Assembly: GCF_001642935.1 (NCBI RefSeq)
Contig: NZ_CP016761.1
Coordinates: forward strand, 2,232,001-2,296,000
Origin: Fictibacillus arsenicus
GTDB lineage: Bacteria > Bacillota > Bacilli > Bacillales > Fictibacillaceae
Length of the DNA: 64,000 nucleotides
Direction of reading: 5' to 3'
Under the pieces are notes generated by a model. That model was not told the origin of the DNA. It was given only the letters and a program-made list of their open reading frames with translations, and searched no databases. A program made the translations under genes and the position numbers. Of this stretch, positions 5,848-60,175 are shown one piece after another. How positions within the stretch are numbered: position 1 is the stretch's first letter; the number at the start of each line of letters is the position of its first letter.

Positions 5848-6270
5848 CCAATAACGTTCTGTAAGCCATGTTCTGTTCCTTAGTACTGCAAGCGGCTATT
5901 CGCCTCGTACACCGGTGGTAATCATCTATCTACAAAAAGCCTTAGCTTCTTGTTCTCCCATTCGTTCAATTCCGAAATGGGAAACTCCCCTACCATAATT
6001 TGGGTTTCTCGCTCGTGGGGTTTACCTCGTTCCACTCCCGCAGTTTCCATTGGGACTACGTCACTGTGGCACTTTCAAGGTATTAACACCATATCCAAAG
6101 GACTTAGGTGCGTTCCCTGCCGTTAGCCCAGTAAGCTCATAGAGCAAACCAAGCTACCCTGGCTTATTTTTTGGCCAGGCACGATCATTACGGTCATCTC
6201 AGATCCGTGCGAGCATGGACTTTCCTCTAAACCAGAAATCTGGTCCAGCGATTACCCGAACGTTATTGAT
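5848..6270 (-). ncRNA. rnpB: RNase P RNA, Bacillus type B
   Basis: Catalytic RNA that matures tRNA 5' ends. On the minus strand it opens with ATCAATAACGTTCGGGTAATCGC, contains the hallmark GAGGAAAGTCCATGCTCGC near its 5' end and the conserved GGTGCGTTCC..AGGGAACGCACC core, and closes with an AACGTTATTGG segment that pairs with the 5' end (AACGTT at both ends forms P1). Length about 420 nt matches B-type RNAs (B. subtilis about 400). Neighbours ypsC and gpsB are the usual ones. Ends are good to a few bases. Confidence 0.96.
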
Positions 6271-43884: not shown

Positions 43885-44085
43885 TAGCCTCCCTGTTTTT
43901 TAACAGGGCCAGAGTGCAAAAAACCTTCTTCCAAAGAGGAAGAAGGCATAGGAAACATCCCTAGACGTTTTGATTGTTTGCTCCCTCTGTCCCGGTCCTG
44001 ATTTTGGATCTAGGCAGATATATGGTTTATGTTCAAAAACTCGCAGTACTAGTGCAGTTCCACTGTAAGGATACTGCCTATAAGA
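43885..44085 (-). ncRNA. Structured panB leader (pan motif candidate)
   Basis: About 200 nt of leader between birA and panB. It can form GCAGTA(44072-44077)/TACTGC(44043-44048) or, exclusively, TAGGCAG/CTGCCTA (44074-44080 with 44011-44017), or CCTAGA/TCTAGG (44009-44014 with 43960-43965). A terminator follows at 43918-43946 and an RBS-adjacent hairpin at about 43886-43905. As I recall, the pan RNA motif of Firmicutes sits exactly upstream of panB; whether this copy matches the consensus needs a covariance search. Confidence 0.7.
43918..43946 (-). terminator. Intrinsic terminator in the panB leader
   Basis: CCTTCTTCC / GGAAGAAGG stem with a 5-nt loop followed by TTTTTTG on the minus strand, 38 nt before panB. 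It either ends the birA operon or attenuates panBCD. Confidence 0.88.
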
Positions 44086-57961: not shown

Positions 57962-57991
57962 ATTATACACGAGAACTAAGAGATTCTCCAA
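57962..57991 (-). promoter_or_regulatory. Promoter of ypiA
   Basis: Minus strand TTGGAG (57986-57991), 18-bp spacer, TATAAT (57962-57967). The -10 overlaps the stop codon of the preceding gene. Confidence 0.65.
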
Positions 57992-58835
57992 AACGACGGG
58001 GCTGGGTTATAATAATTTCTTTTCCATAGCCTTGCTTCTTTTCTGAATTTTTATCAGAATAGACGATTGTACCTCTTACAATGACGGACATAATCTTTTC
58101 TTCAAAGCCTTCTGTTGATAGTAAACAATAATCTGCATCACTGCCAGAGAAAAGTCCGCCTTTTTGAGGATATATTCCGAGCATCTTTAAAAAGGGAAGC
58201 GGAAGCGGCTCATCTTCGTTCAAATCCTTATAAAGAGTAGGTATCTGCATATTTGCTGAAAGATCGTTCCATTTTTTGTGCCATATTTTTTTCTTCTTAT
58301 CTTCTATATCTAAAGGAAATTTCGGAAAGATGACAGTACCATACGGAAAATTAGCTTCTCTGATCCTTTCCCATACTACGCGTGTCAGCTGACTGAAATC
58401 ATCACAGATCAACTCAATAAAAGGGATCTTTTTCTGCTTGCAATAACGGATAATATTTGGAGTGATTTTTTCTGGTGATAAAGAGAGACCGATGCAATAA
58501 TCAATTGAACTTGATATAAGCAGGTGCCGTGTTCTTTTTAATTCGTGTTCAGCTTCGTGGAGATAGTCGATCCTTGCTGAAGTTATTAATGTGGTTGTGC
58601 CGCGCTGTGTTTTCTCAACCGCCTGTCTCCTAACATCCTCTACGGTCATTTTATTGATAGACATTAGTGGCGTAATATGACCGGGTATCATCTTAAAACC
58701 ATGCATCGACATTCTCATAACATTCATTCTAAGAGGCCCTTGTGATACATATGATATTTTTTGAGAATCTACTAGATAAGAAAGTACTGTATTTGTACCA
58801 AGCGATTCTAATGGGCGCTCAATAATATACCGCAT
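57963..58835 (-). CDS. Degenerate amidohydrolase-like protein, function unknown
   Basis: 290 residues, start MRYIIERPLESLGTNT after AAAAGGAGG. The layout recalls the amidohydrolase superfamily: an N-terminal beta part ending GFKMIPGHITPLMSIN where active enzymes have PGxIDxHxH, then GTTTLITSARIDYLHE, a barrel-like middle, and a C-terminal KGGLFSGSDADYCLLS with VIVRGTIVYSD as in the closing strands of that family. The HxH metal pair is missing, so catalysis is doubtful. It occupies the tyrA-aroE position between hisC and ypiA. Family call is inference. Confidence 0.6.
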   Translation of the reverse strand: MRYIIERPLESLGTNTVLSYLVDSQKISYVSQGPLRMNVMRMSMHGFKMIPGHITPLMSINKMTVEDVRRQAVEKTQRGTTTLITSARIDYLHEAEHELKRTRHLLISSSIDYCIGLSLSPEKITPNIIRYCKQKKIPFIELICDDFSQLTRVVWERIREANFPYGTVIFPKFPLDIEDKKKKIWHKKWNDLSANMQIPTLYKDLNEDEPLPLPFLKMLGIYPQKGGLFSGSDADYCLLSTEGFEEKIMSVIVRGTIVYSDKNSEKKQGYGKEIIITQPRRFGESLSSRV

Positions 58836-58908: not shown

Positions 58909-58978
58909 AAAAAAAGTCCTGACATGTAAGCGTTGTCAGGAAAGTATAATATGGATAGGAGTGGAGAGAAACCATATT
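58909..58978 (-). ncRNA. Candidate trans-acting small RNA, ~70 nt, CU-rich loop
   Basis: Minus-strand unit with its own promoter and terminator between hisC and the amidohydrolase-like gene. Hairpin 1 is AATATGG (58972-58978) / CCATATT (58948-58954) with a 17-nt loop containing CTCTCCACTCCT, complementary to Shine-Dalgarno sequences. Hairpin 2 is TCCTGACA / TGTCAGGA (58917-58941) followed by CTTTTTTT. No ORF fits inside. It resembles Gram-positive regulatory RNAs with C-rich loops in design only; I recognise no named family. Confidence 0.6.
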
Positions 58979-58984
58979 AACTAC

Positions 58985-59013
58985 ATTATAAATAGAGTAT
59001 TCTGAAAATGCAA
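58985..59013 (-). promoter_or_regulatory. Strong sigma-A promoter of the candidate sRNA
   Basis: Minus strand TTGCAT (59008-59013), exactly 17 bp, TATAAT (58985-58990). The predicted start falls at 58977-58978, the first base of hairpin 1. Confidence 0.8.
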
Positions 59014-59031: not shown

Positions 59032-59066
59032 GAAAATAGCCCGAGTATCTGATCGATACCGGGCTA
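59032..59066 (-). terminator. Terminator of the trp-hisC operon
   Basis: AGCCCG.GTATC / GATAC.CGGGCT stem with GATCA loop, then ATTTTC on the minus strand, 6 nt after the hisC stop. Weak T-run. It separates the operon from the sRNA unit. Confidence 0.75.
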
Positions 59067-59071
59067 AAATA

Positions 59072-60175
59072 TCAGTTCACACTTTCAACAAGGGATTCTA
59101 TATATGCTTCTAAATGTCCAATTATTTCTTTGTTATGTTCTTCTTCACCTATCGTGATTCGAATCATCGTTGGAAAACCGAGTGCACTTCCTGAACGGAC
59201 AATGTAGCCTTTCTTTAATAGATAATTAAATGCTGAATCTGCGTCAGAATTTACATCAAGTAATATAAAGTTAGCCTCTGAAGGGTAGTAAAGAAGGTCT
59301 TTTCTTTCACAGAAAGAATAGAAGAGTTCGAGCCCCTCCCTGTTCTTCTGTTTACACTCATTAATAAAGCCCTCATCCTCCAATGCGCCTATTGCTGCTG
59401 CTTGAGCAAGTCTTGATGTATTGAATGGTTCTCGAGCTGGCTCCATACCTTTAATAATAGATCTATCCGCTATACCGTATCCTATACGGAGCGCAGCTAG
59501 TCCATGTGCTTTAGAAAATGTACGCAGAATTACTAGATTAGGATAATTCTTTAAATAATGAATGGTATTAGGATAATCATTTGCCGAAACATATTCGAAG
59601 TATGCTTCATCACTAACCACAATGACATTAGAAGGAACCTTTTTCATAAATTGAACAAAATCATTTTCGGGTATGTAGTTCCCCGTAGGATTGTTCGGAT
59701 TACATAGCCAGACGATCTTTGTCTGATGATCAATTTCTTCAATCATTGAATCTAAATCATGGTTACCGTTAATTAACGGCACCTCTCTAATTTCTGCTCC
59801 TTCAATAACTGCATTGTGGCGGTATTGAGGAAAAGTGGGAGCAGCCATTACGGTGTTCGTTTCAGGAGATAAATAAGCTCGGCAAAGAATTTGAACAACT
59901 TCATCGGAACCATTTCCAAAAATAAGCTGTTCTTGTTCTACCCCTAAATAACCAGATAATTTTTCTCTAATCTCAGCTGCATATCCATCCGGATAAACTT
60001 GAAGATTTGAAAGTTCTTCTGTTATCTTATCTTTGGCTAATTTAGAACATCCATAAGGATTCTCATTGGAAGCGAGTTTGATTATTTTTTCTAATCCTAA
60101 CTCACGCTTTACTTCCTCAACGGGTTTACCTGGTTTGTATGGCTGTAATGATAACAACTGTTCTTTCGGCTGCAT
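59072..60175 (-). CDS. hisC: Histidinol-phosphate aminotransferase (aromatic-capable)
   Basis: PLP enzyme serving histidine synthesis and, in Bacillus, tyrosine/phenylalanine transamination, which explains its place in the trp operon. 367 residues. Conserved ASNENPYGCSKLAKD, NNPTGNY, the Asp-x-Ala-Tyr segment VSDEAYFEYV and PLP lysine in TFSKAHGLAALRIGYG. Start ATG (MQPKEQLLSLQPYKPG) after AAAGGAG. Follows trpA by 15 nt; no tyrA or aroE follows. Confidence 0.95.
   Translation of the reverse strand: MQPKEQLLSLQPYKPGKPVEEVKRELGLEKIIKLASNENPYGCSKLAKDKITEELSNLQVYPDGYAAEIREKLSGYLGVEQEQLIFGNGSDEVVQILCRAYLSPETNTVMAAPTFPQYRHNAVIEGAEIREVPLINGNHDLDSMIEEIDHQTKIVWLCNPNNPTGNYIPENDFVQFMKKVPSNVIVVSDEAYFEYVSANDYPNTIHYLKNYPNLVILRTFSKAHGLAALRIGYGIADRSIIKGMEPAREPFNTSRLAQAAAIGALEDEGFINECKQKNREGLELFYSFCERKDLLYYPSEANFILLDVNSDADSAFNYLLKKGYIVRSGSALGFPTMIRITIGEEEHNKEIIGHLEAYIESLVESVN

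Follow-up and report, generated by a model that had tools for sequence, protein, structure and literature searches.

The minus strand between hisC and an amidohydrolase-like gene of Fictibacillus arsenicus carries a short element (58909-59013) made up of a promoter, a hairpin with a 17-nt loop and a terminator. Is this candidate small RNA (sRNA) gene a transcription unit of its own, and what would its RNA do? We followed the element through the stretch of 64,000 nt in which it lies (contig NZ_CP016761.1, positions 2,232,001 to 2,296,000; hereafter the window) and through its relatives.

The element and its conservation

The -10 hexamer TATAAT (58990-58985, minus) is perfect and lies, after a 17-nt spacer, downstream of a weak -35 hexamer, TTGCAT (59013-59008, minus), which has 3/6 bases of TTGACA. 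An initial annotation had called this promoter near-consensus for sigma-A; the description fits the -10 but not the -35, and a consensus scan requiring a minimum of 4/6 per hexamer missed the promoter. With only 3/6 bases at the -35, the window promoter is therefore unconvincing taken alone.

The predicted sRNA is about 70 nt long (58909-58978, minus), its start placed about 7 nt past the -10. The hairpin with a 17-nt loop and the terminator hairpin with seven Ts proposed in that annotation were both recovered. Hairpin 1 (58948-58978, minus) has the stem AATATGG (58978-58972) / CCATATT (58954-58948) and an open 17-nt loop, TTTCTCTCCACTCCTAT (58971-58955, minus), with a seed complementary to GGAGUGGAGAG ribosome-binding sites (RBSs). 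A 25-nt core, ATGGTTTCTCTCCACTCCTATCCAT (58951-58975, minus), is invariant in its central 21 nt; in the locus comparison, its last T is an A in many Paenibacillaceae loci. The terminator hairpin TCCTGACA/TGTCAGGA (58917-58941, minus; stem 58941-58934 / 58924-58917) is followed by the tail of seven T (58909-58915, minus).

Upstream, another hairpin (59037-59066, minus) closes the trp-hisC operon and separates the sRNA from hisC (59072-60175, minus), the upstream neighbour conserved in the window's lineage. A terminator isolating the element from this operon had been proposed and the hairpin bears it out, with a weak T tail. Downstream, the amidohydrolase-like gene (57963-58835, minus) starts 73 nt past the element.

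The RNA fold of the window element reaches -17.7 kcal/mol versus -6.6 +/- 2.0 for 200 dinucleotide shuffles, none of which was as good (z -5.6). At the level of sequence, the decisive case against chance is conservation. Among 60 relatives, BLASTN found the element in 39 genomes including the window's own, comprising the window's whole family (34 of 34 genomes) and five genomes that belong to the order but to other families; the remaining low-scoring matches are chance.

In 397 genomes of the order, the 21-nt core pattern with at most 2 mismatches occurred at 82 places in 73 genomes, compared to 0 places for the reversed pattern. Zero mismatches were found at 72 of the 82 places, 1-2 mismatches at nine (genus g24), and one place is a chance match. 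Once chance matches and galT places (see below) are set aside, 72/72 sRNA-type places have no mismatch at all, though 2 were tolerated; the loop is kept, as the initial annotation had asked of relatives. A core match was found in 28/135 genera, one of them by the chance match alone. We fetched 55 of the 72 zero-mismatch places (17 were not), and 55/55 have a promoter scoring at least 9/12 plus a T-run, a combination seen at 27/1480 random positions of the loci. Two matches were rejected as chance: one inside coding sequence and without promoter (G044, L064), the other without promoter (G584, L423).

An exact scan of named genomes, in which the exactness of the core holds by construction, returned at least 118 stretches, 80 of them listed with names; the genera among the matches listed include Paenibacillus, Cohnella, Brevibacillus, Aneurinibacillus, Thermoactinomyces, Melghirimyces, Shouchella, Halalkalibacter, Fictibacillus and others. 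In a phylum-wide sample of 398 genomes there are seven loci. One is the window's own; the other six come from the same class, and each of them has a promoter and a T-run (an eighth match, in G584, is the one without promoter). We also inspected 30 EPSPS stretches of 29 genomes without the core, two of these stretches being weak EPSPS matches, and found no degenerate remnant (best, 16/23 identities).

Next, we compared how 166 distinct loci are built. When 60 nt upstream are searched, the best promoter scores 12/12 in 81 loci, 11 in 36, 10 in 20, 9 in 28 and 4 in one (upstream masked). Promoters of relatives are mostly stronger than the window's, and many distant relatives have TTGACA at the -35. 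The predicted transcript has a median length of 84 nt. In the 166 folds, the mean unpaired probability of the loop bases is 0.70-0.99 per base, and at least 0.87 except for the middle CCA at about 0.7.

The stem is less constant. The TGG/CCA stem of hairpin 1 is closed in 114/166 predicted folds and open in 52/166. Among 47 distinct contexts of CCAT-type loci, 35 have GC, AT or GT as the third outer pair; CCAA-type loci (the Paenibacillaceae form) show no simple stem extension. As the stem varies outside the core, the exposed core is the constant part and the hairpin a variable support. In L038, L044, L050 and similar loci we also observed a further small hairpin, TAGC...GCTA, lying after hairpin 1 and ahead of the terminator; many Paenibacillaceae loci have another kind of extra hairpin in this position. 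A conserved seed, predicted to be accessible, is what characterizes a trans-acting base-pairing sRNA, and it was found here.

Predicted targets of the loop

To look for mRNAs that the loop could pair with, we searched for the 11-nt complementary sequence GGAGTGGAGAG followed by 0-10 nt and ATG, and counted a match as RBS-like if it precedes an open frame of at least 60 aa and the upstream frame is closed. Raw matches compared with a reversed control were 46 vs 7 in 42 genomes of the order that carry the sRNA (sRNA+), 42 rows vs 12 in 29 sRNA+ genomes from named records, and 28 vs 9 in 71 genomes without it (sRNA-). RBS-like sites numbered 35/46, at least 25 (25/36 read) and 12/28, respectively. 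From the 88 sRNA+ rows, 82 sites were read, and the rest are two repeats, two hits on the sRNA gene itself and two unfetched sites (G424, G442). Target prediction had been suggested at the outset as a check, and complementary RBSs are enriched in sRNA+ genomes (35 in 42 genomes vs 12 in 71 sRNA- genomes). Several 11-mer matches inside a reading frame that we take to be thiolase-like were rejected, as their upstream frame is not closed. Taken by itself, the seed's 3' half (ATAGGAGTGGA) shows only mild enrichment (87 vs 58 rows); extended by GA, it occurs 14 times vs 1, as counted by eye.

The matched genes recur within lineages. In the window's genus, the start of an aldehyde dehydrogenase gene is matched in five of six included genomes and that of a B12-binding mutase-type protein in three of six; the window's own genome carries both (G000:C1:706597 and G000:C1:2400392). 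Thioredoxin reductase is matched in 4/5 genomes of genus g3, which belongs to the window's family. Pattern matches were also found at DAHP synthase-chorismate mutase (three genomes, two families), homoserine dehydrogenase (hom; three, two families) and cggR (four Paenibacillus records), and once each at serA, serC, pheA, purB, glycogen phosphorylase and an HPr-family protein. Matches to NCBIfam models exceed the cut-off for DAHP synthase, TrxB, Hom, HPr and GalT. For the aldehyde dehydrogenase and cggR proteins, models matched only below their cut-offs, and these two names are presumed from likeness; the remaining target names are likewise presumed.

Three of these genes, DAHP synthase, hom and cggR, were picked from the pattern matches for a comparison of ortholog starts, measured as at least 9 contiguous Watson-Crick pairs between seed and start region. 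The sRNA+ and sRNA- sets are different families, for cggR different orders, and genomes within families are related. For DAHP synthase, 20/43 sRNA+ starts vs 1/27 sRNA- starts reach this length. The median duplex energy is -20.7 vs -12.6 kcal/mol, with a p value of 2e-5 that ignores kinship and is too small, and 25/43 sRNA+ starts compared to 1/27 sRNA- starts beat 98% of 300 shuffled seeds. For hom, the counts are 13/31 vs 0/18 (p = 1e-4 by energy, kinship ignored), and 14/31 vs 1/18 starts beat 98% of shuffles. For cggR, 10/31 vs 0/19 starts reach the length, with p values (3e-7 by energy, 0.004 by Fisher on counts) that ignore kinship and are too small; just 7/31 sRNA+ starts beat 98% of shuffled seeds.

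Without the discovery matches, 17/40 (DAHP synthase), 10/28 (hom) and 6/27 (cggR) sRNA+ starts still reach 9 pairs. As background, 5/841 starts in sRNA+ trp-qcr stretches do so, none with 11 or more, and 0/89 in sRNA- stretches. The DAHP synthase and hom signals are each present in six of nine sRNA+ families. These numbers rest on 70/88 listed matches for DAHP synthase (the unread ones being mainly second copies and G009, G012, G041, G051 and G062), 50/55 for cggR (G440, G422, G415, G056 and G418 left out) and 49 starts for hom, with a single start per genome (G036, G019, second paralogs and two matches that are broken or partial left out).

Contiguous Watson-Crick pairing does not exceed 5 pairs at the DAHP synthase and hom starts of the window's own genome. 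Once G-U pairs are allowed, hom (-21.1) and one of the two DAHP synthase copies (-20.2) beat nearly all shuffled seeds; the second copy does not. One sRNA- genome (G061 of family f29; L440, L555) has AGGAGTGGAG at its DAHP synthase RBS and a partly similar hom RBS, perhaps reflecting a recent loss of the sRNA or a diverged sRNA.

The longest match was found in genus g24, where 9/14 genomes have a core match with 1-2 mismatches. We considered paralogous sRNA copies and rejected them: the six fetched places (four translated) all lie on the opposite strand of the galT RBS. There (L219-L224, near position 2000), 18 nt are perfectly complementary to the core, over the Shine-Dalgarno sequence and the start codon, and the flanks differ. 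This RBS sits just after a presumably galK-like gene, and galT itself was identified by NCBIfam. Outside g24, no significant pairing was found in nine galT starts read from 18 matched starts, the nine others being missed by the motif filter. As 24/42 sRNA+ genomes, the window's included, have no galT match, galT was rejected as a universal target.

Complementary mRNA starts that co-occur with the sRNA, as found here, point to predicted targets of its loop. Alternatively, the frozen core could bind a protein or a single conserved RNA, the RBS matches being coincidental G-rich Shine-Dalgarno sequences. For a multi-target seed, invariance that extends into stem bases is indeed unusually strict, and the mild enrichment of the 3'-half motif alone fits this explanation as well. 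Nevertheless, we consider it unlikely, given the long complementarity at sRNA+ ortholog starts against a background of 0.6% and one of 64 sRNA- ortholog starts, and given an 18-nt match at galT while the flanks differ.

CcpA boxes and known RNAs

Catabolite control by CcpA acts at cre boxes, for which the consensuses are TGWNANCGNTNWCA and TGNAARCGNWWWCA. The terminator hairpin of the window element contains a cre-like CcpA box, TGACAACGCTTACA (58925-58938, minus), which fits TGWNANCGNTNWCA. We searched for perfect matches to either consensus from 60 nt upstream to 120 nt downstream of the core and found one in 111/164 distinct loci compared to 4/3280 mononucleotide shuffles. Of these 111 loci, 74 have the perfect box upstream and 36 downstream; a single locus has one on each side. 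All upstream boxes (74/74) overlap the stretch from -35 to -10. Among the downstream boxes, 33 stop short of the terminator's end; three others and the two-sided case are less telling. A perfect cre box in the promoter or before the terminator's end is therefore present in 107/164 distinct loci.

Among the 53 loci lacking a perfect box, 37 have a box with one mismatch, and in 16/164 loci none was found even at one mismatch: eight of genus g3, two of Aneurinibacillus, one of Melghirimyces, one of Thermoactinomyces, and L152, L167, L178 and L181 (upstream masked). Control of these sRNA loci may differ from the CcpA type. The cre-less set includes L071, L073, L084, L128, L152, L167 and L178 and, in genus g3, L027-L032, L034 and L035.

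Placement follows lineage, with the box in the promoter in Paenibacillaceae and in the terminator hairpin in the window and many Bacillaceae-like loci. Two unrelated placements of one operator suggest selection on CcpA control. From the overlap with the promoter we infer repression, and a downstream box could act as a roadblock. With cre boxes at positions able to act, the sRNA gene is a predicted member of the CcpA regulon. Comparison of the loci establishes a sigma-A-type promoter, a C/U-rich seed frozen across several families, a Rho-independent terminator, a cre box in most loci and enriched complementary RBSs.

Is the element a known RNA? No Rfam match reached the gathering score at the element in the window and 8 relative stretches. 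Under permissive settings, six weak matches appeared (E 0.37 to 9.4), the best with a bit score of 19 (rseX, gathering 50). RoxS/RsaE and FsrA have Rfam models, and no known family matched the element. Elsewhere in the window, ordinary Rfam matches are RNase P class B (5857-6263) and a pan motif (43983-44080). A literature search covering a minority of the subscription papers and no supplementary tables found no paper describing the element.

Spot 42 of Escherichia coli is a catabolite-linked sRNA that acts within the gal operon and is made in glucose. The element shares the catabolite link and a gal target (galT, predicted in one genus) but differs in lineage, has no Rfam match and would follow the opposite carbon logic, being predicted to be made without glucose.

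In logic, the nearest known RNAs are RsaI of Staphylococcus aureus and RosA of Bacillus subtilis. RsaI (RsaOG) is repressed by CcpA and derepressed on glucose starvation; by base pairing of its C-rich region with mRNAs, it represses translation at Shine-Dalgarno sequences (PMC9266662, PMC8216469). Its mRNA targets include glcU_2, fn3K and icaR (PMC9266662), and it is reportedly conserved in Staphylococcus and not in Bacilli (PMC8216469). CcpA repression and a C-rich mRNA-pairing region are predicted for the element too; in contrast, its predicted targets belong mainly to amino-acid biosynthesis and central carbon metabolism, and it is without an Rfam match. RosA is a CcpA-repressed sponge of RoxS and FsrA with G-rich and without C-rich regions (PMC8216469); CcpA repression is again common to both (predicted for the element), whereas the element's loop is C-rich. 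The C-rich regions of RoxS/RsaE and FsrA pair with central-metabolism mRNAs (in part PMC8216469), much as predicted here, but RoxS is under Rex control (PMC8216469) and the element has CcpA cre boxes. An RNA-seq study of P. riograndensis reports 27 intergenic small RNAs (PMC5670726).

The precedent of RosA, itself repressed by CcpA (PMC8216469), would also allow an RNA that chiefly sponges another sRNA, as RosA does RoxS, with mRNA pairing secondary. This is very unlikely for the present element: RosA and RsaI bind C-rich partners via G-rich regions, and the exposed region here is C-rich, of the kind with which RsaI pairs with mRNAs.

Genomic place and meaning of the element

Finally, we investigated the place of the sRNA gene. 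The neighbours named here (hisC, tyrA, aroA(EPSPS) and the ECF sigma factor-like, amidohydrolase-like, ypiA-like and dihydroorotase-like genes) are what we take them to be from their sequences. In 112/121 distinct loci examined, hisC, tyrA or aroA(EPSPS) is on the same stretch. This conserved block lies upstream on the same strand in 90/112 loci and downstream on the opposite strand in 22/112, where the sRNA gene is inverted. The next gene varies across the 112 loci: it is ECF sigma factor-like in 32, amidohydrolase-like in 9, ypiA-like in 8, dihydroorotase-like in 3 and another in the others. A fixed same-strand downstream gene was not found across the 112 loci.

The initial annotation had offered an attenuated leader of the downstream gene as its alternative, in which the terminator would conditionally admit RNA polymerase into that gene. 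The window taken by itself fits this, with a promoter, two hairpins, a terminator and a same-strand gene 73 nt on. Nonetheless, the next gene changes between loci, the element opposes the conserved block in 22/112 of them, and what stays invariant is the loop rather than an alternative antiterminator helix. A leader or attenuator would not survive inversion, so the element is an independent gene, and we rejected the cis-acting leader as highly improbable. As the neighbour differs by lineage, the comparison indicates that the amidohydrolase-like gene is not the regulated gene. Its protein (57963-58835) has no Pfam match at 0.001, and relatives of this protein flank the sRNA in several families. 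With its own promoter and terminator, the element has the predicted make-up of an independent transcription unit.

Least likely of all is a near-leaderless peptide from ATG GTT TCT CTC CAC TCC TAT CCA (MVSLHSYP...), which we rejected: the ATG is present in 162/162 loci, but third codon positions are equally invariant, no fitting ribosome-binding site precedes the ATG, and the sequence diverges freely past the core, with an in-frame stop before the T-run in only 84/162 loci.

The element is thus very probably an independent, CcpA-repressed sRNA gene whose trans-acting RNA uses its loop to block translation of anabolic and central-carbon mRNAs on sugar depletion. The initial proposal from the window, a trans-acting sRNA carrying an anti-Shine-Dalgarno loop, is strengthened by the frozen loop, the element's own promoter and terminator, a place kept despite changes of strand and neighbour, and the enriched RBSs. 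While a preferred sugar is present, CcpA would repress the gene. Once the sugar runs out, the sRNA would accumulate. In many mRNAs, its loop would then pair with GGAGUGGAGAG around the Shine-Dalgarno sequence and block 30S binding. The recurrent predicted targets are DAHP synthase-chorismate mutase, hom, cggR (in Paenibacillus), thioredoxin reductase, aldehyde dehydrogenase, the B12-binding protein and galT. When carbon is limiting, the sRNA would thereby slow the translation of anabolic and central-carbon genes.

The cre box, the breadth of the distribution and the predicted targets go beyond the initial annotation. Base-pairing sRNAs are usually fast-evolving and narrow in range. The predicted transcript defines a new sRNA family of a known kind, with unusually strict and wide conservation. 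We see an even chance that one ancient sRNA beside the aromatic-amino-acid block of aerobic spore-formers, from Paenibacillaceae to alkaliphilic Bacillaceae, forms a shared CcpA-controlled post-transcriptional arm. Its seed would be fixed by a broad, lineage-shifting set of RBSs, with some targets such as galT paired over Shine-Dalgarno sequence and start codon, stem bases included. With its invariant core in many families, a predicted CcpA switch and predicted targets, the sRNA would provide a system for studying the turnover of an sRNA regulon around a fixed seed, and CcpA control would reach amino-acid biosynthesis and glycolysis translationally in Paenibacillus, Halalkalibacter-type and Fictibacillus-type bacteria.
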